DNA of 47,400 bases from Chloroflexota bacterium (lineage in GTDB: Bacteria > Chloroflexota > Limnocylindria > Limnocylindrales > CSP1-4). The number at the start of each line of letters is the position of its first letter. The stretch's first letter is position 1. Below are positions 6,049 through 30,467 of this stretch, piece after piece. The stretch lies in NCBI GenBank assembly GCA_003157875.1, contig PMKV01000134.1, forward strand, positions 1,590 to 48,989, in the 5' to 3' direction. The notes under the pieces are model-generated. The model ran no database searches. It saw nothing but the letters and a program-made list of their open reading frames with translations, and had not been told where the DNA came from. Made by a program: the position numbers and the translations under genes.

Positions 6049-7140
6049 ATGAAACGTCGCGCGCTCGCGCTGTGCGCGGGCTTCCTGCTGCTGGGCCTGA
6101 TACCCGGGTCCACCATGGCCACCGTCGGCAATCTCGACCTATCGAACCCTGTCGACCTGACGCATCAGACTAACGCGTCCTCGGTCGATCTCGCCCAGAC
6201 CTTCACCGCCGACAAGACCGGGGATCTGAGCCGCGTCGATCTGTATGTCGGCGGGGGCTTGGCTACCGTCGCCATGAATATCAAACATGTGGACGCCAGC
6301 ACCGGAATGCCCACGGGCTCGCCCATCGAGTCTTCGACCGCTTCGACTACCACAACCCCCGGCTGGGTCCAGTTCTCATTCGCGCCGGCCCAGGGCATCT
6401 TCAATGGCTCGAAATACGCCATCGTCTTCAACCTCGTCACGGACGCCAACGCGGCCTACGGCTCCACCGGGACCGCCGGTGGCGGTCTGGCGCTCTGGAA
6501 CAACCCCTCGTGGGTCGCGCTGCCGGACCCCACGGAATTCGCCTTCAGAACGTTCGTGGACACGGTGGCGCCGACGCTCAGCTGGGACAAGACCACCATC
6601 CAGGCTGAGACCAGCACCACGCTGACCCTCACCGAGACGATGACCTTCCTCAACGGCGCCGAGGCATCGGTCTACGAGGCCGATCTCGACGCAAAGCCAG
6701 GTTGGTTCACCCCTACGGGCATCACCTGCTCAGCCGCGATCACCAACTGCACTCTCGGGAACTACGAGTCAACGGGAGTGGTTGCCCCTGCGGCCTTCGG
6801 CGGTGAGACTCTCACAATAGTGCTGACCGGCACGGCGCTGCCGCACAACGCCGATGTTGGAATAGCGGGAGTGGCGACCACTTTCGCCTGCCTCGAGTAC
6901 CCGCTCAAAATGACCCTCGTTCAGCCGAATGCCATCGACCCGGGTTGCCCGTCGATCTCGGCATCGATCGGCGTCGGGGTGCCCGCGCCTACGACTCCGC
7001 CCACGCCTCCGCCGACGAGCACCGCCGGCGCGACCGCGTCGGACGGCTCGGGCAGCGCGATCTGGTTCCTCCCGGTCGGCCTGATCGCCGCCTTCGGCGG
7101 CCTCTTCGTTGGCACGAAACGGCGCCGGCGGATCGCCTGA
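6049..7140 (+). CDS. Secreted, C-terminally anchored surface protein
   Basis: The ATG at 6049 has GGAGG 10 bases upstream and opens a clear signal peptide: MKRR, then a hydrophobic stretch ending near PGSTMA. The mature part has a domain of about 130 residues resembling the choice-of-anchor type beta-sandwich (TFTADKTGDLSRVDLYVGGG and GWVQFSFAP are visible). A second region with paired cysteines, a Thr/Pro linker and a C-terminal hydrophobic helix (FLPVGLIAAFGGLFVG) followed by KRRRR come next. Protein length is 363 residues. The layout means export by Sec and retention in the membrane by the C-terminal helix; no LPXTG-type sorting motif is seen. The function is unknown. The frame is open further upstream, but those codons lack protein-like composition. 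Confidence 0.8.
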   Translation: MKRRALALCAGFLLLGLIPGSTMATVGNLDLSNPVDLTHQTNASSVDLAQTFTADKTGDLSRVDLYVGGGLATVAMNIKHVDASTGMPTGSPIESSTASTTTTPGWVQFSFAPAQGIFNGSKYAIVFNLVTDANAAYGSTGTAGGGLALWNNPSWVALPDPTEFAFRTFVDTVAPTLSWDKTTIQAETSTTLTLTETMTFLNGAEASVYEADLDAKPGWFTPTGITCSAAITNCTLGNYESTGVVAPAAFGGETLTIVLTGTALPHNADVGIAGVATTFACLEYPLKMTLVQPNAIDPGCPSISASIGVGVPAPTTPPTPPPTSTAGATASDGSGSAIWFLPVGLIAAFGGLFVGTKRRRRIA

Positions 7141-7153
7141 ACCGGATTGCCTC

Positions 7154-7187
7154 GACGGGGTCGCGCGGCATCTCGCGCGGCCCCGTC
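7154..7187 (+). terminator. Long GC-rich hairpin
   Basis: A 14-bp stem (GACGGGGTCGCGCG with CGCGCGGCCCCGTC, one T-G pair) and a 6-base loop lie 13 bases after the stop of the anchored surface protein and before murT. Only a short TCGATT follows. It is probably the terminator separating the surface protein from the cell-wall genes. Confidence 0.7.
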
Positions 7188-7255
7188 TCGATTCCCGACG
7201 GACCCGAGGCCCGCGACGGGCGGGCGGGCCCTCCGACCAGTTACACTCGGGGGGA

Positions 7256-8686
7256 ATGACCAGCCTGCTGAGCCGGCGTCCCGTTGGCACCCCAACCTCG
7301 TTTCCATTACGCGGCCTGCTTGCCCTCGCCGCCGGAAAGAGCGCCGCTCGGGCCACTCGCCTCATCGGTCGTGGCGGCGGCACGGCGATAACCGGCATGG
7401 TCGCCCGCAAGGTCGACCCGCGCATACTCGACGAGCTGGTGCGAATCCCCGGCGTGCCCGTGGTGGCCATCACCGGCAGTAACGGCAAGACCACGACCGC
7501 TCGATTCACCGCCGCGTTACTCCGCGGCGAGGGCATAACCGTCTGCCACAACTCCGCCGGCGCGAACCTCATCCAGGGCGTCACGAGTCTGGCGGTCAGC
7601 TACGCCAACCTGCGCGGCCACCTGCCCCAGGGCGTGCTCGTGGCCGAGGTGGATGAAGGCGCGCTCCCCATGGTCGCCCCGGAGACGCTGCCGCGGGCGC
7701 TCCTCGTGACGGACCTCTTCCGCGACCAGCTGGACCGCTTCGGCGAGATCTACGCCGTGGCCGATGCTATCGAATCGGTGGCGGCGGCTCTGCCGGCCGA
7801 CGCGGCGCTGGTCGTCAACGCGGACGATCCCATGGTCGCGACGCTGGCCGAGAAGCGCGAAGGTCGGCGCGTCACGTTCGGCCTGGCGATCAAGAGATCC
7901 ACCGACCAGATCACTCGCGCCGCCGACACGATCCGCTGCCCGCGCTGCCAGGCGGACCTCAAGTACCGCCATGTCTACCTCTCGCACATGGGCGATTACA
8001 GCTGCCCGTCCTGCGGCTTCGCGCGGCCCAAGCTGGACGTCGCCGTGACTTCGCTGGAGGTGGTCGGCCTCGATCGAACGCGAGTCGGGCTCCAGACTCC
8101 TTCGGGCAAGCTGACCCTGGAGATCCCGCAGTCGGGCGTGCACATCGCCTATGACGCCGCCGGCGCGGTGGCGATTCTGGTTGGACTCGGCGTTTCGCTC
8201 GATCACGCGGCCGAGTCTCTGGCCTCGGTCGGACCGGCCTTCGGTCGACTCGAGAAGATCGAGGCGGACGGTCGGACGATCGTTCTGGCCTTTGCCAAGA
8301 ACCCGACCTCGTACAACACCACGCTCCGGGCGCTCGCGACCGAAGGCGAGCCGCGCCAGCTCCTGATCGCCGCCTCGAACACGCTCGTCGACGGCGAGGA
8401 CTTCGGCTGGCTGTGGGACGTCGACTTCGAGACGATGGCGCCACGGGTCGAGCGAGCGGTCATCTCCGGCACACGCGCCGATGAGCTGGCCAACCGGCTC
8501 CACTACGCCGGCGTCTCGGCGAGCAAGCTCAAGGTCATCGAGGATCGGCCGGAAGCGCTCACGGAAGCGCTCTCGCTGCTGCCGCCCGGGTCGCGGCTGG
8601 TCGTGCTGTCGGGCTACACGCCGCTGATCGAACTGCGAGACGAGATGCGGCGGCGTGGCTGGACTGGGAGATACTGGGCCGTATGA
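7256..8686 (+). CDS. murT: Lipid II isoglutaminyl synthase, Mur-ligase-like subunit MurT
   Basis: MurT with GatD amidates the alpha-carboxyl of the D-glutamate in lipid II, using glutamine-derived ammonia and ATP. The 476-residue protein has the Mur ligase P-loop ITGSNGKTT (about 72-80). The MurT-specific four-cysteine zinc ribbon is present (Cys228, Cys231, Cys250, Cys253). The C-terminal DUF1727 region contains DGEDFGWLWD, where the aspartate that completes the GatD catalytic triad is expected. The ATG at 7256 follows a GGGGG run at close spacing. The gene overlaps gatD by four bases (ATGA), so the two subunits are translationally coupled. The protein should act at the inner face of the membrane on lipid-linked precursor. 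Confidence 0.95.
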   Translation: MTSLLSRRPVGTPTSFPLRGLLALAAGKSAARATRLIGRGGGTAITGMVARKVDPRILDELVRIPGVPVVAITGSNGKTTTARFTAALLRGEGITVCHNSAGANLIQGVTSLAVSYANLRGHLPQGVLVAEVDEGALPMVAPETLPRALLVTDLFRDQLDRFGEIYAVADAIESVAAALPADAALVVNADDPMVATLAEKREGRRVTFGLAIKRSTDQITRAADTIRCPRCQADLKYRHVYLSHMGDYSCPSCGFARPKLDVAVTSLEVVGLDRTRVGLQTPSGKLTLEIPQSGVHIAYDAAGAVAILVGLGVSLDHAAESLASVGPAFGRLEKIEADGRTIVLAFAKNPTSYNTTLRALATEGEPRQLLIAASNTLVDGEDFGWLWDVDFETMAPRVERAVISGTRADELANRLHYAGVSASKLKVIEDRPEALTEALSLLPPGSRLVVLSGYTPLIELRDEMRRRGWTGRYWAV

Positions 8687-9783
8687 CCGAGCGCAAGCCA
8701 CCGGAGCCGGCGACCCCGCACAAGCCCGTGCCGAAGACCGTCGCCGTCCGGCCCGTCACGAACGACTACCAGGCCGACCCCGTCGATCCCTATCCGCTCA
8801 TCCCGCAGGTGCCGCAGCCGGCGTCGAAGCGGTCGAAGGCCGGGCCATCCGCATCGACCGCCGGCCAGTCGGCCACGCCGACCGCGCCGCCGGCCGATGC
8901 CGACCGGTCGCCCGAAAGCATCCCGCCGTCCGCGCCGGTCCCCATGGTCCATTCGGCCGGATCGCGCCATTCACGCGACCACAGGCCGCTTCGCATCGCC
9001 CACCTCTACCCGTCGCTGCTGAACGTGGCCGGCGACGGCGGCAATCTCATCGCGTTGCAGCGCCGGGCCCAGTGGCGGGGCATCCCCGTCGAGGTCGTGG
9101 CGGTGGAGAAGGGCGAGACGCCGGACTTCCGCAAGTTCGACATCGTCCTGTTCCACGGCGGCCAGGACGTGGAGATGGCCGTCGCGGCCGAAGACTTCGC
9201 CCGCAAGTCCCCGTCGCTGCGCGAGGCCGTGGCGGAGGGCGTGGTCGTCTTCGCCGTGTGCGCCGGCCTCCAGCTGCTCGGCCATCGCTACGTTTCGAAC
9301 GACGGTCAGGAGATGCTTGGCGCCGGCATCCTGGATCTCGAGACGCGCGGCGGACAGCAACGATTCATGCAGCATGCCGCCTGCGAGGTCACGATCGACG
9401 GCACGACCGAGACGGTCGTCGGTTTCGAGAACCACTCCGGCCTGACCGAGCTTGGGCCCGGTTGCGTCGAGTTCGGGCGGGTGGTTGCCGGGGCGGGCAA
9501 CAACGGCCGCGACGGCCTGGAAGGGGCGCGGTCCGGCAACGTCTTCGCCACGTACCTGCACGGCCCGTGCCTGCCAAAGAACCCGTGGCTGACCGACCAG
9601 CTCATCAGAATCGCGGTCGGCCGCGCCGAGGGCGTTCGACCGGCCAAGGTGGTCCTCGCGCCACTCAACGACGAGTTGGAGGTCCGCGCCCACGCCGTGG
9701 CGCTGGCCAAGGCGATGGCCAACCGCGGCCGGCGCACGGCGCTGGAGCCGGCCAGACTGGTGCGTGGCCAGAGGCAAGGCTAG
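8683..9783 (+). CDS. gatD: Lipid II isoglutaminyl synthase, glutaminase subunit GatD
   Basis: This is a class I glutamine amidotransferase of the CobB/CobQ type that supplies ammonia to MurT. The nucleophile is Cys193 in FAVCAGLQLLG and the catalytic histidine is His293 in YLHGPCLPKNPWL. The LYP..GDGGN N-terminal motif of GatD proteins starts only at about residue 100. Before it lies a Pro/Ala-rich, probably disordered extension of about 87-100 residues that GatD proteins of about 240-270 residues lack. An internal ATG at 8944 would give normal length. The ATGA overlap with murT supports the longer start, so the extension may be real. Confidence 0.93.
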   Translation: MTERKPPEPATPHKPVPKTVAVRPVTNDYQADPVDPYPLIPQVPQPASKRSKAGPSASTAGQSATPTAPPADADRSPESIPPSAPVPMVHSAGSRHSRDHRPLRIAHLYPSLLNVAGDGGNLIALQRRAQWRGIPVEVVAVEKGETPDFRKFDIVLFHGGQDVEMAVAAEDFARKSPSLREAVAEGVVVFAVCAGLQLLGHRYVSNDGQEMLGAGILDLETRGGQQRFMQHAACEVTIDGTTETVVGFENHSGLTELGPGCVEFGRVVAGAGNNGRDGLEGARSGNVFATYLHGPCLPKNPWLTDQLIRIAVGRAEGVRPAKVVLAPLNDELEVRAHAVALAKAMANRGRRTALEPARLVRGQRQG

Positions 9784-23374: not shown

Positions 23375-23432
23375 GGCCACGGTGACACGGCGTTCTGAGC
23401 TCCGAGTATTGGGTCCGCAAAGGAGGAGCATC

Positions 23433-25238
23433 GTGTCCACTCCTACCGTCTCGACCGGCCGGTATGTCGGCGGCTGGCCCAAGATCGGCATCCGCCCGGC
23501 CATCGACGGCCGGCGGAACGGCATTCGTGAGTCGCTCGAGGGCCAGACCATGGGCCTGGCACGCATCGCGGCCGAGCACCTGAGCGCCAACCTGCGCTAC
23601 CCCGACGGCAAGCCCGTCGAATGCGTCATCCCCGAGGACTGCATCGGCGGCGTCGTCGAGGCCGCGCGCGCCGCGGAGCTCTTCAGCCGCGAAGGCGTGG
23701 GCGTCTCGATCACCGTGACCCCATGCTGGTGCTACGGCTCCGAAACGATGGACATGGATCCGCTCACCCCCAAGGCGGTCTGGGGATTCAACGGCACCGA
23801 GCGCCCCGGCGCGGTCTACCTGGCGGCCGTGCTCGCCGGCCACGCCCAGAAGGGGCTGCCGGCCTACGGCATCTACGGCCGCGACGTACAGGATGCCGGC
23901 GAGGGCACCATCCCGGCCGACGTGGCGGAGAAGCTGCTGCGCTTCGCCCGCGCCGCGCTGGCCGCCGCGATCATGCGCGGCAAGTCGTACCTGTCGCTGG
24001 GCGGCGTCTCAATGGGCATCGCCGGCTCGATCGTCGATCAGGGTTTCTTCGAGCGCTACCTCGGCATGCGTGTCGAGGCCGTCGACATGTCGGAGCTGAC
24101 GCGGCGCATCGACCGCAAAATCTACGACCCGGCCGAATTCGAGCGAGCCCACACGTGGGTCCGAGCCAACTGCCACGAAGGCGACGACAGAAACGCGCCG
24201 GAAGGGACGCGGAGCCGCGAGCAGAAGGACCGCGACTGGCAGACGGTCGTGAAGATGACCCTCATCGCCCGAGACCTGCTGGTCGGCAATCCGAGGCTGG
24301 GCGAGCTGGGATTCGGAGAGGAGGCGATGGGCCACAACGCCATCGTCGGCGGCTTCCAGGGGCAGCGCCACTGGACCGACCACTCGCCCAACGGCGACTT
24401 CATGGAGGCCTTCCTCAACTCCTCGTTCGACTGGGACGGGGTCAGGGCACCGTACGTCTTCGCGACCGAGAACGACAGCCTCAACGGCGCCGCGATGCTC
24501 TTCGGCTACCTGCTGACGAACACCGCTCAGGTCTTCGCCGACGTGAGGACCTACTGGAGCCCCGACGCGGTCAAGCGCGTGACCGGCCACACGCTGGCGG
24601 GTCCCGCCGCCGGAGGCGTAATCCATCTGATCAACTCGGGAGCGGCCAGCATGGACGCCGCCGGCGGAACCCGGCGCGACGGCAAGCCGGCCATGAAGCC
24701 CTTCTGGGAGATCGGCGAGGACGAAGCGAAGGCCTGCCTCGACGCGGTCAAATGGATGCCGGCCGTGACCGGCTACTTCCGAGGCGGCGGCTTCTCGTCG
24801 CTATTCCTCTCGCCCGGCGGGATGCCGGTGACGATGAGCCGCATCAACCTCGTGCACGGAGTCGGTCCCGTCCTTCAGCTCGCCGAGGGCTACACGGTGG
24901 ACCTGCCGCCCGAGGCGAACGCCAGGCTCGATGCCCGAACCGACCCGACGTGGCCGACCCAGTGGTTCGCGCCGCGGCTCACCGGGGCCGGCCCGTTCCG
25001 CGACGTCTACGGCGTCATGGCCAACTGGGGCGCCAACCACTGCGCCATGAGCTACGGGCACATCGGCGAAGACCTCATAAGCCTCGCCTCTCTGCTCCGA
25101 ATACCGGTTAGCATGCACAACGTGCCGGCCGAGAAGCTGTTCCGACCCAGCGTCTGGAACTCTCTCGGAACGGCCGATCCGGAGGGCGCCGACTATCGGG
25201 CCTGCGCCAACTTCGGGCCTCTGTACGGCAAGAGCTAG
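23433..25238 (+). CDS. fucI: L-fucose isomerase
   Basis: This enzyme isomerises L-fucose to L-fuculose (and D-arabinose to D-ribulose) with Mn2+. The 601-residue protein matches the family over its whole length: [67 protein letters not shown] and [10 protein letters not shown] are visible. Metal and catalytic residues are Glu346 (ATENDSLNG), Asp370 (VFADVRTYW) and His536 (NWGANH), with nearly the same spacing as Glu337, Asp361 and His528 in E. coli FucI. The GTG start at 23433 has AGGAGG seven to nine bases upstream. Next to it lies a sugar kinase. No fuculose-phosphate aldolase gene is in the window. Confidence 0.97.
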
Positions 25239-25287
25239 GGCGCGTTCTCTCGATCGAACGGGGGGCGCCGTTCGAGCAGGAGGGCCA

Positions 25288-26787
25288 ATGGACCACCCGC
25301 GCAAGTTCGTGGCGATCGACCTCGGAGCCTCGAGCGGCCGCCTGCTCCTGGGCCGCTGGGACGGGTCCCGCTTCGACGTCAGCGAGGTTCATCGGTTCAT
25401 CAACGGGCCGGTGACGACGCTCGGCCACCTGCACTGGGACGTTCTGTCCATCTTCGCCGAGATCAAGTCGGGCCTGGCCTGCTGCATCTCCGGCGAGGCG
25501 CGAGCCGACGGCATCGCCGGACTCGGTCTGGACACCTGGGGCGTGGACTACGCCCTCCTGGACCGGCAAGGGAGGATGCTCGGCAACCCGTATCACTACC
25601 GCGACAAGCGCAACGACGGGACCATGGAACTGGCCTTCGGGCGAGTGCCGCGGCATGCCATCTACGACGCGACCGGCATCCAGATGATGCAGATCAACAC
25701 CGTCTTCCAGCTGCTGAGCATGGTCCGCGACGGCGATCCACAGCTCGAGCTGGCCAAGACGCTGCTGCCGATGCCAAACCTGTTCGGCTACTGGCTCTCC
25801 GGGCAGAAGGCCGCCGAATACACCTTCGCCACGACGACTCAGTGCCTCGAAGCCCGCGACCGCCGCTGGGCGGTGGATTTGCTGGCGAAGCTCGACATCC
25901 CGACGGCCTTCCTCCCGCCGATCGTGGAGCCGGCCACCGTCCTGGGCACTTTGCTGCCGGATGTGGCGGCCGACACGGGATTGCCCGAGTCCGTGCCTGT
26001 GATCAACGTCGGCAGCCACGACACCGCCAGCGCCGTTGCGGCAATTCCCGGGCTGGATGCGCGCAGCGCCTACATCAGCAGTGGCACCTGGAGCCTGATG
26101 GGCGTTGAGGCCCCGGGCGCGGTCATCAACGACCTCTCTCTGGCGGGCAATTTCACCAACGAGGGCGGCGTCGGCGGCACGATCCGGCTGCTGCGGAACA
26201 TCCCCGGCCTGTGGCTCATCCAGGAGTGCCGGCGCCAGTGGCAGAAAGAGGGCAGCGAGTACACCTGGGAGGCCTTGCTGGATAGAGCGGAGCGCGAGGA
26301 GCCTTTCCGCCACCTCATCGACCCCGACGCGCCCGAGCTGCTCAACCCGCAGGACATGCCGGCGGCCATCCGCGGCCTGTGCCGCCGGACCGGGCAGGAG
26401 CCGCCCGAGACGGTCGGCGCCGTGGTGCGGTGCTGCCTCGAAAGCCTGGCCCTGCGCTACCGCCAGACACTCGAGGACCTGGAGCAACTCGTCGGCCACA
26501 AGCTGGAAGTGGTCAGGATCGTCGGCGGCGGCAGTCAGAATCGCCTGCTCTGCCAGATGGCCGCCGACGCGTGCGGCGTACCGGTGGTGGCAGGCCCGAT
26601 CGAGGCGACGGCGCTCGGCAATCTCATGGTGCAGGCCATCGCCACCGGCGATCTGGACGGCATCGAGGCCGGGCGAGCGGCAGTGGCGGCTTCGGTGACG
26701 CTGGACACGTACGAGCCCCATTCCGATGCCGCGTGGCAAGACATGCTCGGCCGGCTTCAAGGCTTCGTCGCCCACGACGCGGGGTGA
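25288..26787 (+). CDS. Rhamnulokinase-family sugar kinase (FGGY)
   Basis: The 499-residue FGGY kinase is closest in pattern to RhaB: AIDLGASSGRLLLG, EVHRFINGP, LGLDTWGVDYALLD, TTTQCLEARD, GSHDTASAVAAIP, SSGTWSLMGVE, NITNEGG-like NFTNEGGVGG, and the C-terminal RIVGGGSQNRLLCQM. It phosphorylates a ketose at O1 with ATP. Coming after L-fucose isomerase it most likely phosphorylates L-fuculose, though L-rhamnulose is the typical RhaB substrate. The ATG has AGGAGG upstream (CAGGAGGGCCA). The stop overlaps the start of the next gene. Confidence 0.93.
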   Translation: MDHPRKFVAIDLGASSGRLLLGRWDGSRFDVSEVHRFINGPVTTLGHLHWDVLSIFAEIKSGLACCISGEARADGIAGLGLDTWGVDYALLDRQGRMLGNPYHYRDKRNDGTMELAFGRVPRHAIYDATGIQMMQINTVFQLLSMVRDGDPQLELAKTLLPMPNLFGYWLSGQKAAEYTFATTTQCLEARDRRWAVDLLAKLDIPTAFLPPIVEPATVLGTLLPDVAADTGLPESVPVINVGSHDTASAVAAIPGLDARSAYISSGTWSLMGVEAPGAVINDLSLAGNFTNEGGVGGTIRLLRNIPGLWLIQECRRQWQKEGSEYTWEALLDRAEREEPFRHLIDPDAPELLNPQDMPAAIRGLCRRTGQEPPETVGAVVRCCLESLALRYRQTLEDLEQLVGHKLEVVRIVGGGSQNRLLCQMAADACGVPVVAGPIEATALGNLMVQAIATGDLDGIEAGRAAVAASVTLDTYEPHSDAAWQDMLGRLQGFVAHDAG

Positions 26788-27572
26788 CCAGTTTGTCGGC
26801 GCCGCCGCCGGATGACCCAACCTTCCTGACCGCAGGCGGCCTCCGCGTTCGGTACGTCTCGGTGGGGCAGGGCAAACCGCTGCTCCTCATGCACGGCTGG
26901 GGCACTTCTCTCGACACGTTCGCGGGCTTGATCGAGGACCTGCGGCGCCTCTACCGCGTCATCGCCTTCGACTTCCCGGGCCACGGCGGCTCGGACCTGC
27001 CACCGGCCACCTGGACGGTCGACGACTTCGTCCGCCTGACGCTCGACGTGATGGCGGGGCTGGGAGTGGAGCGCGCCTCGATGCTGGGCCATTCGTTCGG
27101 CGGGCGCGTTGCCATCAAGCTGGCGGCCGCCTACCCGGATCGAGTCGACCATCTGGTGCTCGTGGACTCGGCCGGCGTGCCGCCCCGGCGCACCGTTCGG
27201 CGGATCCTGAAGCGGACAGCGTCGCGCCTCGCCAACGCCGCCGGGCGCCACCTCGGACCTCCCGGGCGGGCCGTCCGCCGCAGGATCGTGGCCCGAATCG
27301 CGTCCACGGATTACGTCAACGCCGGGCCGCTGCGCGATACCTTCCTCGCGATCGTCAAGGAGGATCTCCGGCCGGCGATGGTCCGGATCGCGGCCCCGAC
27401 GCTGCTGGTATGGGGCGAATCGGACGCGGACACGCCGCCCGCCGACGGCCGCGAAATGGAGCGGCTGATCCCCAACGCCAGCCTGCTCGTGCTCAAGTCG
27501 GCCGGCCACTTCGCGTACCTGGATCAGCACGGGCGGTTCCGCCTGGCCGTGCTGGCGTTCCTCGATGACTGA
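26784..27572 (+). CDS. Alpha/beta hydrolase
   Basis: The 262-residue protein has the oxyanion region LLLMHGWGTS, the nucleophile elbow LGHSFGGRVA, the acid in WGESDADTP and the histidine in SAGHFAYLD, so the Ser-Asp-His triad is complete. The GTG start overlaps the kinase stop by four bases (GTGA) and the C-terminus overlaps the MurF-like gene by eight. A TTG at 26793 is an alternative start. It is a soluble esterase/lipase-like protein with a basic cap region (about 130-160); the substrate is unknown. Its place between sugar and cell-wall genes gives no clear role. Confidence 0.88.
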   Translation: MTSLSAPPPDDPTFLTAGGLRVRYVSVGQGKPLLLMHGWGTSLDTFAGLIEDLRRLYRVIAFDFPGHGGSDLPPATWTVDDFVRLTLDVMAGLGVERASMLGHSFGGRVAIKLAAAYPDRVDHLVLVDSAGVPPRRTVRRILKRTASRLANAAGRHLGPPGRAVRRRIVARIASTDYVNAGPLRDTFLAIVKEDLRPAMVRIAAPTLLVWGESDADTPPADGREMERLIPNASLLVLKSAGHFAYLDQHGRFRLAVLAFLDD

Positions 27573-29265
27573 TCAGATTCAGCTGGACCTGGTCCAGTCG
27601 CCGGATCCCCTCGTTCTCGCCGTCCTGGCCTTCGCCGCCGCCACCGGGCTGGTGCTGACGCTGCTGGGCCTGATCTCGAGTCTCCACGCCCTCCAGCAGG
27701 ACGACTACTCCAACCTGCGCTTCGCCCGCTGGCTGTGGTCGTCGAAGGGCCGCCTGGTCCATCCCTGGATCGCGCTCATCTACGCCGTCGGAGTCGTCGC
27801 GCAGCTGAACCTCGGGACGAGTTCGGCCCGGCCGGCCGAACTGGCCGCCCCGCTGCTCGCCTCGGTCGCGGCGATCCTCGCCACGGTGCGGTCGCCCAGG
27901 CGGGCGCCGCGGAAGAAACCGCTCGTCTACACCGGCCGGGCGAGACGCCTCCTGGCCGTGTCGGTCGCGCTGGCAGCGATCTTGTTCGTCGCCGGCGGTG
28001 GGTTCGCCGCGCGGTTCGTCGATCCGCACCTTACGGTCACGTCCTCGTACCTGCCAGGCCTGGCGATCCTCATCATGGCCCCCGTCACCATCCACGCCGC
28101 GCCGTTCCTGGCCATGGCCGCCAACCTGTGCCTCGTTCCGGTCCAGGCCACGATCAACTGGAGCTACCGCGTCAGAGCCGGCCGCAAGCTGGCCCGCCTG
28201 GGGCCGATGGTGATCGGCATCACCGGCAGCTACGGCAAGACCTCCACCAAGTACTTCACCGAGGCGCTGATGGGGTCGCGGTTCCGCGTCCTCAAGACCC
28301 GGGCCAGCTTCAACACGATCCTCGGCGTCTGCCGCGCCATCAACGAGGAGCTTGGTCCGGAGCACGAGGTCCTGATCGTGGAGATGGGCGCCTACCGGCG
28401 CGGCGAGATCCGCGACATGGCCCGCCTCTGCAAGCCCCACATCGGCGTTCTGACGGCCATCGGCCCGCAGCATCTCGAGCGCTTCGGCAGCATCGAGACG
28501 ATCGAGCGGGCCAAGTTCGAGCTGCTCGAGGCCCTGCCGGCCGACGGGATCGCGGTCGTCAACAACGACGATCCGCGCGTCCGCCGCCTGGCCGACGGCC
28601 TGACGCTGCCGCAGGTCCGGCGCTACGGCATCGACTTCTCGGCCGGCGAGCTCGACCTCCGCGCCGACTCGATCGAGCACGGGCCGGACGGCCTGGCCTT
28701 CAACCTTGTCGACCGCGAGGGCAAGCGAGTGACCGTCCAGACTCGGCTGATCGGCCTTCACAACGTCTCGAACATCCTGGCCGCCGCCACCGTGGCCCGG
28801 GCCGCGAACGTGAGTCTGCGCGAGATTGCCGGCGCGATCAGCGGTCTGCAGCCCGTTCCCCACCGCCTGGAGACCCACACCGGCGCCGACGGCGTGACGA
28901 TCATCGACGACGCCTACAACTCCAACCCGGTCGGCGCCTTCAACGCCCTCGACACGCTGGCGGAGTTCAAGACGGGGCGCAAGATCCTGGTGACGCCGGG
29001 AATGGTGGAGCTGGGCGGGGAGCAGGAGGTCTGGAACGAGAAGCTGGGCAGGAAGGCGGCCGCGATCTGCGATTACGTCATCCTGGTCGGCACTCGCCAG
29101 ACCGCCCCGACCCGCCGCGGGCTCGAGGCGGAGGGCTTCGCGCCCGACCGGCTGCTCGCGGTCAAGAACCTCACCGACGGCCTCGAGGCGCTGAGGGGTA
29201 TCGTTCGTGCCGGCGATGTCGTGTTGTTCGAGAATGATCTGCCCGACCTGTACGACGAGGAGTAA
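27565..29265 (+). CDS. MurF-like Mur ligase with N-terminal membrane domain
   Basis: The C-terminal part (from about residue 210) is a Mur ligase of the MurF type. It has P-loop GITGSYGKTSTK (Gly221 onward), IVEMGAYRRGEI, the central LTAIGPQHLERFGS and C-terminal ligase motifs HRLETHTGADGV and IDDAYNSNPVGA. It should join D-Ala-D-Ala to UDP-MurNAc-tripeptide. The usual N-terminal MurF substrate domain is missing. In its place are about five hydrophobic helices (residues 1-180), so the enzyme would be an integral membrane protein. The next gene encodes the D-Ala-D-Ala ligase that makes its substrate. Total length is 566 residues. Confidence 0.9.
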   Translation: MTDQIQLDLVQSPDPLVLAVLAFAAATGLVLTLLGLISSLHALQQDDYSNLRFARWLWSSKGRLVHPWIALIYAVGVVAQLNLGTSSARPAELAAPLLASVAAILATVRSPRRAPRKKPLVYTGRARRLLAVSVALAAILFVAGGGFAARFVDPHLTVTSSYLPGLAILIMAPVTIHAAPFLAMAANLCLVPVQATINWSYRVRAGRKLARLGPMVIGITGSYGKTSTKYFTEALMGSRFRVLKTRASFNTILGVCRAINEELGPEHEVLIVEMGAYRRGEIRDMARLCKPHIGVLTAIGPQHLERFGSIETIERAKFELLEALPADGIAVVNNDDPRVRRLADGLTLPQVRRYGIDFSAGELDLRADSIEHGPDGLAFNLVDREGKRVTVQTRLIGLHNVSNILAAATVARAANVSLREIAGAISGLQPVPHRLETHTGADGVTIIDDAYNSNPVGAFNALDTLAEFKTGRKILVTPGMVELGGEQEVWNEKLGRKAAAICDYVILVGTRQTAPTRRGLEAEGFAPDRLLAVKNLTDGLEALRGIVRAGDVVLFENDLPDLYDEE

Positions 29266-29273
29266 GGCGCTTC

Positions 29274-30467
29274 ATGCCCAACAAGACCGTGGCCGTCCTG
29301 TTCGGCGGCCGATCAGTCGAGCACGAGGTCTCGGTGATCTCGGCCCATCAGGTCATGGACGCCCTCGATCAGGCGGGATTCCCGATCCTGCCGATCTACA
29401 TCACCAAACTGGGTGACTGGTATGCCGGCGAGGGGCTCCACAACCTGGAGCTGTATCGCGAGCAGACCTTCCACGCGGCCGGGCTCAAGAACGTCTTCCG
29501 CGTCGGCCTGAGCCCGGACCGATCCGTCCGGCAGCTGGTCGTTCACCCGGTGGCCGGCGGCGGCCTCCTATCGAAAGGGCCGAAGCTCTGGGCGGATGTC
29601 TTCTTTCCGGTTCTGCACGGCACCCACGGCGAGGACGGGTCGATCCAGGGGCTCTTCGAGCTCGCGGACGTGCCGTATGTAGGCTCGGGGATACTCGCCT
29701 CCGCGATCGGCATGGACAAGGTCCGGACCAAGCGGATCCTCGAAGAAGCCGGCATCCCCACCCTCGATTGCCTGGAGGTTTCGCGGGCCGAATGGACCGC
29801 CGATCCGGACGCCTTCGCGGCCGAGGTCGAGAAGAAGTACCCATATCCGGTCATCGTCAAGCCCGTCTGCCTCGGCAGCAGCGTCGGCGTCACGCGCGCC
29901 GCCGACCGCGCCGCCCTCACCGACGCTCTCGACCTGGCGTTGGAGATCGACGTCCGCGCCCTGGTCGAAGAGGCCCTGACCGATTTCATCGAGCTCAACT
30001 GCGCCGTAATGGGCCCGCCCGAGCGCGCCTCCGCCTGCGAGCAGCCGATCGGGTACGAAGCCGTGCTCTCGTTCGACGACAAGTACAAGCACGGCGGCAA
30101 GAAGCTCGGCGGCGCCAAGACCGGGACCGGGGCGGGGAGCGCCGGCATGGCCGGCCTGCGCCGCGAGATTCCGGCGCCGATCGGCGACGCACTCACGGCC
30201 CAGGTCCAGGAGCTCGCCGTCAAGGCGTTCCGCGCCATCGGGGCCGCCGGCGTCGCCCGCGTCGACTTCCTGTACCAAGCCGCGGGGAAGCGGCTGCTCC
30301 TCAACGAGATCAACACCCTGCCGGGCTCGCTGGCCTACTACCTCTGGGAAGTGGATGGGCTGCGCTTCGACCAGCTGGTTTCGATGCTCGTTCAGTCCGC
30401 CCTGGACCGCCACGAGGCCAAGCGCGCCACGACCTACTCGTTCACGGCGAATCTGCTGACGCGCTGA
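29274..30467 (+). CDS. ddl: D-alanine--D-alanine ligase
   Basis: The 397-residue ATP-grasp enzyme has the N-terminal Ddl signature VLFGGRSVEHEVSVIS, GEDGSIQGLFELADVPYVGSG (partly shown), the DKVRTKRIL segment, the ATP-binding VIVKPVCLGSSVGV, and Mg2+ ligands in RVDFLY and LLNEINTLPG. It condenses two D-alanines for peptidoglycan. It follows the MurF-like gene after 8 bases. A segment with GGKKLGGAKTGTGAGSAG (about 277-294) is a Gly/Lys-rich stretch in the omega-loop region and makes the protein a little longer than usual. Confidence 0.96.
   Translation: MPNKTVAVLFGGRSVEHEVSVISAHQVMDALDQAGFPILPIYITKLGDWYAGEGLHNLELYREQTFHAAGLKNVFRVGLSPDRSVRQLVVHPVAGGGLLSKGPKLWADVFFPVLHGTHGEDGSIQGLFELADVPYVGSGILASAIGMDKVRTKRILEEAGIPTLDCLEVSRAEWTADPDAFAAEVEKKYPYPVIVKPVCLGSSVGVTRAADRAALTDALDLALEIDVRALVEEALTDFIELNCAVMGPPERASACEQPIGYEAVLSFDDKYKHGGKKLGGAKTGTGAGSAGMAGLRREIPAPIGDALTAQVQELAVKAFRAIGAAGVARVDFLYQAAGKRLLLNEINTLPGSLAYYLWEVDGLRFDQLVSMLVQSALDRHEAKRATTYSFTANLLTR

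Follow-up and report, generated by a model that had tools for sequence, protein, structure and literature searches.

A 47,400-nucleotide stretch of a Chloroflexota genome (contig PMKV01000134.1 of assembly GCA_003157875.1; hereafter the window) encodes TM-MurF, a variant of the peptidoglycan ligase MurF that carries a membrane domain at its N-terminus. From comparisons of gene content, it is very probably the working MurF of its host and apparently a housekeeping enzyme. Sequence profiles and structure prediction confirm TM-MurF as a real variant with an intact ligase part, and it has apparently not been described previously: we found no description of a membrane MurF, or of the cassette of hydrolase, TM-MurF and D-alanine--D-alanine ligase (Ddl) to which it belongs, in the titles and abstract beginnings listed by searches of the open-access literature, a scope that leaves subscription journals mostly outside. 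In textbooks, MurF is a soluble enzyme with a precursor linked to uridine diphosphate (UDP) as its substrate, and the pentapeptide is finished before the lipid carrier is reached. TM-MurF appears to stand in for this soluble enzyme in wetland and gut bacteria scattered over at least three phyla; judged by record titles, many of these hosts are Clostridia and Bacteroidales of the gut. There, a membrane-embedded stand-in would alter which precursor pools are to be expected and how inhibitors of MraY and MurF act. With it, the sequence of the final cytoplasmic wall-building steps becomes directly testable, and a textbook step may occur on the membrane.

A MurF ligase core behind five predicted membrane spans

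The original prediction described a MurF-like ligase with intact central and C-terminal parts, and this was borne out. In the 566-residue protein, Pfam detects Mur_ligase_M (PF08245, residues 219–411, E = 9e-43) and Mur_ligase_C (PF02875, residues 433–555, E = 2.7e-14), the P-loop is present, and a structure search with the ligase part returned MurF as the best match (3zl8, Z 41.5, root-mean-square deviation 3.8 over 369 aligned residues; 4qf5_A, Z 38.5). The MurT structure 9sqj gave Z 27.8 against the model. The top NCBIfam model is murF TIGR01143 at 244.1 bits, under its cut-off of 288.6, and this cut-off was reached by TM-MurF in none of the eight TM-MurF genomes of the genus and in none of 21 genomes carrying the cassette, so that such genomes may be annotated as lacking murF.

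The N-terminal domain that binds UDP-N-acetylmuramic acid (UDP-MurNAc) was not detected in TM-MurF by Pfam, by TIGR01143 or in the predicted model. Pfam gives no match before residue 219, PF01225 being absent as well, and the TIGR01143 alignment of the window protein skips the start of the 418-position profile, beginning at position 64; in the cassette genomes it begins at positions 59–74. A BLAST comparison of residues 1–205 with the ordinary MurF of the genus yielded nothing better than E = 1.2. AlphaFold2, run with a 74-row alignment, gave a confident model (predicted local distance difference test 92.5, predicted template modelling score 0.89) with long helices at residues 15–45, 67–85, 90–109, 124–152 and 160–189 and additional helices at 50–59 and 191–212. 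The membrane part thus spans approximately residues 15–189 and is followed by a linker helix on to about residue 212. Around five helices within some 180 N-terminal residues had been predicted; the number of spans held, while the region is slightly longer. In a Kyte-Doolittle scan, four segments of the window protein exceed 1.6, and most relatives have four or five such segments. Lysines and arginines are concentrated in loop 46–66 (four), loop 110–123 (five) and the stretch past the fifth helix (five), with none at the N-terminus, one in loop 86–89 and none in loop 153–159. This distribution fits five spans with the N-terminus outside and the C-terminus inside, which would place the ligase in the cytosol and supplies the topology that the original prediction had named as a check.

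The same layout recurs in relatives from other phyla, which argues against an assembly artefact. For the membrane domain (compared as residues 1–214), Pfam assigns no family in the window protein and gives scattered matches in no more than four of the 73 members, the PDB sequences yield one match at E = 8.5, and structure searches found no relative below E = 0.1 in the PDB with Foldseek and none below 0.4 in a viral library, the best VIA score being Z 5.5.

For residue conservation we aligned the window protein with 73 relatives taken from 81 candidates, eight having been excluded by eye without a rule (alignment A1, 74 rows); alignment A2 excludes L058, which has a long insert. The P-loop, H303, K317, D448, D449 and N452 are invariant in the TM-MurF alignment, END[LI]P near the C-terminus occurs in 70 rows, and K[GA]SR occurs in none. 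In comparison with known MurF structures (3zl8, 4qf5, 4cvk), TM-MurF shares the central ATP-binding and C-terminal domains, the P-loop, a D.YN.NP-type motif and the apparent role of only working MurF. It differs in having five membrane helices for the UDP-binding domain, ENDLPD for KGSR, and a gene that belongs to the hydrolase and Ddl cassette, not to the dcw cluster.

Distribution of MurF and Ddl among the host genomes

The original prediction had pointed to a canonical second MurF as a telling find. None was found in the window's genome (75% complete), where six proteins have a Mur ligase central domain (MurC, MurD, MurE, FolC, MurT and TM-MurF), and no stand-alone one accompanies TM-MurF in the samples from the genus, Lachnospiraceae or Bacteroidales. 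A second MurF doing the normal job in the window's genome was accordingly rejected, as neither these six proteins nor those of the TM-MurF genomes of the genus include one. Within the genus (n = 21), eight genomes carry TM-MurF (in G014 it is cut at the contig end), 13 carry an ordinary MurF over the cut-off (383–401 bits), and none carries both. Overlap is also zero in Lachnospiraceae (n = 60; five TM-MurF, 50 ordinary, five with neither clear) and in Bacteroidales (n = 80; six TM-MurF, 68 ordinary stand-alone, six with neither clear). The Lachnospiraceae, Bacteroidales and Chloroflexota tallies were made by hand among the matches listed, down to about 78, 74 and 81 bits, respectively. The best second matches in G134 and G096 resemble MurD by sequence, in our judgement. 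Under independent placement, the chance of zero overlap would be 4.9e-6 in the genus, 4.6e-5 in Lachnospiraceae and 3.1e-6 in Bacteroidales, values that ignore kinship and are therefore too small. Among 121 Chloroflexota genomes, TM-MurF is present in ten, from eight families; another 95 show a MurF-type match of at least 160 bits without a membrane part (stand-alone and fused forms pooled), 14 have no match and two are unclear. The window's genome (G000) and G019 belong to the genus set as well. If G281 is scored as carrying both forms, at most one overlap would arise with a probability of 1.6e-6.

In all six TM-MurF genomes of the genus whose dcw cluster was inspected, the order is ftsL-ftsI-mraY-murD-ftsW-murG-murB-ftsQ-ftsA (the ftsQ label is tentative), with ftsZ in five and one contig ending earlier, and, of the dcw proteins searched for, MurF and Ddl are those without a match. 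In the three ordinary genomes inspected, murF lies between ftsI and mraY in every case, and ddl lies on the far side of murG, where it adjoins ftsQ in two genomes and is found at the end of the contig in the other; murB was under the overlap filter in one. Ddl is split in the same genus, with only the cassette Ddl in seven TM-MurF genomes, only the dcw Ddl in 12 ordinary genomes and no match in two (G005, G014). In the window's genome, the single match to the Ddl N-domain (PF01820) is the cassette Ddl. For a wider view we picked 21 cassette genomes from 80 related loci of named genomes (Chloroflexota, Clostridia, Bacteroidales), themselves the best 80 of 496 confirmed stretches. The sole Ddl adjoins TM-MurF in 17 of the 21, a single Ddl lies on another contig in G062 and G064, and two Ddl are present in G071 and G074. 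The mutual exclusion and the dcw clusters without murF and ddl make TM-MurF most likely the working MurF. Without it, no MurF at all would be found in the genus and Lachnospiraceae hosts, and for these two groups the genetic evidence of a housekeeping role, as read from the genomes, is strong. A candidate host with TM-MurF as its only MurF found is Lachnospiraceae bacterium GAM79 (complete genome, locus L121). In the genus, the cassette has displaced the murF and ddl of the dcw cluster. Elsewhere in the window's genome, murE adjoins a FemAB-type gene outside the dcw cluster (L007, 5316–8191), and murC is on another contig.

Several observations weigh against TM-MurF as the working MurF. The window's genome is incomplete and could be missing a second MurF, so that the question is answered by the relatives and not by this genome. 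TM-MurF scores under the murF cut-off, though just 9 of 14 control genomes pass it. The TM-MurF genomes of the genus form a near-clade in the MraY tree, so that the genus counts are not independent events. Two genomes, G074 and G281, were found with both TM-MurF and an ordinary stand-alone MurF. G074 (Bacilli, locus L072) combines TM-MurF with an ordinary 405-residue MurF and two Ddl; measured against the 42 residues common to 14 ordinary MurFs and at least 95% of the 74 TM-MurFs, its ordinary MurF keeps 30, including T226, H303, K317 and N452, and looks intact. Finally, fusions of MurF with alanine racemase (MurF-Alr) occur beside TM-MurF in Bacteroidales and in three of the ten Chloroflexota TM-MurF genomes (G281, G294, G306), and the MurF half of the G281 fusion, at 316.6 bits over the murF cut-off and with 36 of the 42 residues, could be active.

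The stand-alone MurF of G281 points in the other direction. It is an open gene (L285, 1189–2652) that keeps 23 of the 42 residues and has lost T226 of the P-loop, K317 and N452. It scores just 123.7 bits with the 74-row TM-MurF alignment, which we attribute to decay. Its orthologue in G247, from the same family and without a TM-MurF match, is 56.5% identical, intact and over the murF cut-off. The G281 copy is thus likely a relic left after displacement by TM-MurF, which supports the working-MurF reading, while the fusion in the same genome weakens it.

The other fusions vary. The MurF half scores 306.9 bits in G294, over the cut-off, with 32 of the 42 residues and without H303 and K317, and 209.7 bits in G306, under the cut-off, with 21 residues. 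The Chloroflexota fusions (L281 in G281, L282 in G247, L283 in G294, L286 in G306) are about 850–890 residues long and occur beside an ordinary MurF or TM-MurF. Because the MurF half is over the cut-off in three of these four, it may keep activity, unlike those of Bacteroidales. In Bacteroidales, 71 of 80 genomes have a fusion over the cut-off, with or without TM-MurF, and since 68 of the 80 have a separate stand-alone MurF, its MurF half may be generally inactive there. Seven fusions from Bacteroidales cassette genomes (L205–L211) keep 18–24 of the 42 residues in this half; their P-loop GKT-x ends in V, I or K in five of seven, and the YNSD of L207 is missing in six of seven. This count covers cassette genomes only, and the decay is therefore not tied to the cassette. 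A fusion as the working MurF of cassette Bacteroidales was rejected, with less force than the second MurF above, on its independence of TM-MurF, the stand-alone copies in 68 of 80 and the few residues kept. MurF-Alr (NF008897; Bacteroidales and some Chloroflexota) resembles TM-MurF in its MurF-related N-terminal half and differs by its UDP-binding domain and its racemase half.

G074, the G281 fusion and the family-specific ENDLPD in place of KGSR or KASR would also be compatible with an accessory role, in which TM-MurF attaches D-Ala-D-Ala, or some other dipeptide, to a lipid or polymer that is not peptidoglycan. We regard this as very unlikely, given that a stand-alone MurF is excluded in the samples of 21, 60 and 80 genomes, that the G281 copy is decayed, and that the dcw clusters are without murF and ddl.

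As for the history of TM-MurF, the genus MraY tree needs two changes to account for the near-clade, which suggests that displacement in the genus happened once or a few times. Branching in the TM-MurF tree mostly agrees with phylum, a single clade holding 18 of the 19 Bacteroidota rows, and recent spread between phyla was rejected as the main history on this basis. The patchy occurrence within Lachnospiraceae, Bacteroidales and Chloroflexota indicates repeated displacement or repeated loss, which these data do not distinguish.

The membrane domain and the possible substrate

Two conserved motifs face the cytosol in the predicted topology, one in the loop between the first and second spans and one ahead of the fourth (Table 1). 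Both remain in L080, L098 and L112, from which the hairpin of the second and third spans is missing. Both are also present in L064, where unread bases at the start leave the first helix undecided. The conservation of the motifs and their survival without the hairpin favour a binding site over a plain anchor, and the loops look like a site for binding at the membrane surface. The invariant T123 and R125 lie on the cytosolic side of the membrane domain, which occupies the place of the UDP domain.

The UDP part of the substrate is bound in Mur ligases by the N-terminal domain (PMC6085368, PMC6113224). The substrate pyrophosphate lies at the border of the N-terminal and middle domains, where a UDP domain would clash with the membrane if the substrate were lipid-linked (PMC6113224). 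MurT is without the UDP-binding N-domain and amidates lipid I and II, and no UDP precursor (PMC6085368). As in MurT, the UDP domain has been lost from TM-MurF, here with a membrane domain in its place, and this tips the balance slightly towards a lipid-linked tripeptide (lipid I or II), in place of UDP-MurNAc-tripeptide, as its substrate. MurT, which in the MurT/GatD lipid II isoglutaminyl synthase acts on lipid I and II (PMC6085368, PMC6113224), resembles TM-MurF in its Mur-ligase core without a UDP-binding domain. It differs in amidating D-Glu, in its MurT_C domain, in its GatD partner and in its short N-terminus. Pfam finds no MurT_C (PF08353) in the 566-residue protein, and the adjoining genes encode a hydrolase and Ddl, not GatD. 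The window has its own MurT and GatD genes side by side at 7109–9783, and this Chloroflexota genome therefore probably amidates lipid II.

The original prediction offered a choice between a membrane-bound MurF and an enzyme whose substrate is lipid-linked or of another kind. The membrane-bound working MurF has held up and a substrate outside peptidoglycan has not, and the choice itself was too sharp, since the same precursor in its lipid-linked form could still serve as substrate for a working MurF, and the loss of the UDP-binding domain points to that form.

Alternatively, the membrane domain would only place the enzyme by MraY for hand-over of the pentapeptide, and TM-MurF would still use cytosolic UDP-MurNAc-tripeptide. 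This leaves the rest of the pathway unchanged. It also agrees with the dispensable hairpin of L080, L098 and L112, expected if the domain is partly an anchor, and with MraY: between seven TM-MurF and 13 ordinary genomes (G004 excluded, its MraY being a fragment), no MraY column is fixed differently, hence no sign of a changed MraY substrate, which speaks against a lipid-linked tripeptide. However, the UDP-binding domain is absent and not merely extended, as the start of the TIGR01143 alignment indicates. A pure tether would need no invariant T123 and R125 and no near-invariant Q44, Y48, W56, K117, K118 and R128 among 74 proteins, and the cytosolic motifs persist where the hairpin is lost. We consider such tethering plausible, with somewhat less than an even chance.

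As the working MurF, TM-MurF would be an ATP-dependent ligase, as its conserved ligase part suggests, adding D-Ala-D-Ala to the stem tripeptide of peptidoglycan at the inner surface of the cytoplasmic membrane. The dipeptide would be supplied by the cassette's own Ddl, and the five-helix domain, with its two cytosolic motifs at the membrane surface, replaces the domain that holds UDP in ordinary MurF. The hydrolase might, as a guess, take part in this step by cleaving a side product, or an ester or peptide derived from the membrane. The chances are close to evenly balanced for a fully changed pathway order, in which MraY converts UDP-MurNAc-tripeptide to lipid I, the pentapeptide is then completed by TM-MurF at the membrane on lipid I or II, the basic glycine-rich loop of Ddl docks to the membrane or to TM-MurF, and UDP-MurNAc-pentapeptide is no intermediate.

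The cassette and its neighbours

Table 1 Features of the cassette in the window (residue numbers refer to the encoded protein).
Feature	Position	Strand	Description
Alpha/beta hydrolase	26784–27572	+	Abhydrolase_1, E = 8.2e-34; GTG start; first cassette gene
TM-MurF gene	27565–29265	+	566 residues, ATG start; membrane domain with MurF central and C-terminal domains
N-terminal membrane domain	27565–28179	+	Residues 1–205; five predicted spans; no Pfam family
Motif H41xxQ44xxxY48...W56	27685–27732	+	Cytosolic loop between spans 1 and 2 (predicted); of 74 rows Q44 73, Y48 73, W56 70, H41 55
Motif K117K118PLVYT123xR125xxR128	27913–27948	+	Cytosolic, before span 4 (predicted); of 74 rows T123 74, R125 74, K117 73, R128 73, K118 71
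P-loop GITGSYGKTS (218–227)	28216–28245	+	ATP site (predicted); T220, G221, S222, G224, K225, T226 invariant in 74 rows
DDAYNSNP (448–455)	28906–28929	+	Aligns with DDTYNASP of the genus's ordinary MurF
ENDLPD (556–561)	29230–29247	+	C-terminal family motif; KASR at that place in the genus's ordinary MurF
Ddl, D-alanine--D-alanine ligase	29274–30467	+	397 residues; PF01820, PF07478; NF002528 309.1 bits (cut-off 262)
Ddl omega-loop	30081–30149	+	K270-Y271 kept, then Gly/Lys/Ala/Ser-rich insert of variable length

The three genes are tightly packed: the GTG start of the hydrolase overlaps the stop of the preceding kinase, its end overlaps the start of TM-MurF, and eight bases separate TM-MurF from Ddl. 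By tblastn matches, hydrolase, TM-MurF and Ddl adjoin in that order in 70 of the 80 loci; in four of the other ten the hydrolase lies past Ddl, and six deviate or reach a contig end. Gene clustering places the three cassette genes in 73, 70 and 67 of the 80 loci, the next commonest neighbour cluster, with an ABC-transporter-like example, occurring in 18. In the hydrolase, Ser103, Asp213 and His241 (numbering from base 26787) are conserved in a 72-row alignment and are likely its catalytic triad. Its profile and database matches are generic and esterase-type, with nothing more specific.

Compared with the PRK01966-type Ddl (NF002528), the cassette Ddl is alike in its score over the cut-off, its ATP-grasp fold and its Lys-Tyr, and differs by the insert in the omega-loop. 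This low-complexity Gly/Lys/Ala/Ser insert is common to the cassette Ddls inspected and ends in a conserved GM shortly ahead of the IPA stretch. The unusual loop, and a combination of Ddl, MurF and hydrolase that recalls van-type gene sets, might suggest a resistance module in which Ddl makes a D-Ala-D-X other than D-Ala-D-Ala for attachment by TM-MurF, and the hydrolase clears away the normal dipeptide. This appears highly unlikely, because the Ddl beside TM-MurF is the only one in 17 of 21 cassette genomes and in the seven genus genomes where it was found, and a host with a sole Ddl has no normal dipeptide to remove. In addition, the best NCBIfam model is a D-Ala-D-Ala ligase and the omega-loop keeps Lys-Tyr, which we take to be typical of such ligases.

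Upstream of the cassette, the window contains an isomerase-like open reading frame and then an FGGY-kinase gene directly before the hydrolase (23382–26787). A relative of the isomerase-like frame is also found upstream in L044 and L045, and other genes are found there in L042 and L046. In G029, from another genus of the same family, locus L030 has a distant cassette in the same order (TM-MurF 31%, hydrolase 35% and Ddl 33% identical), an older branch within the family.

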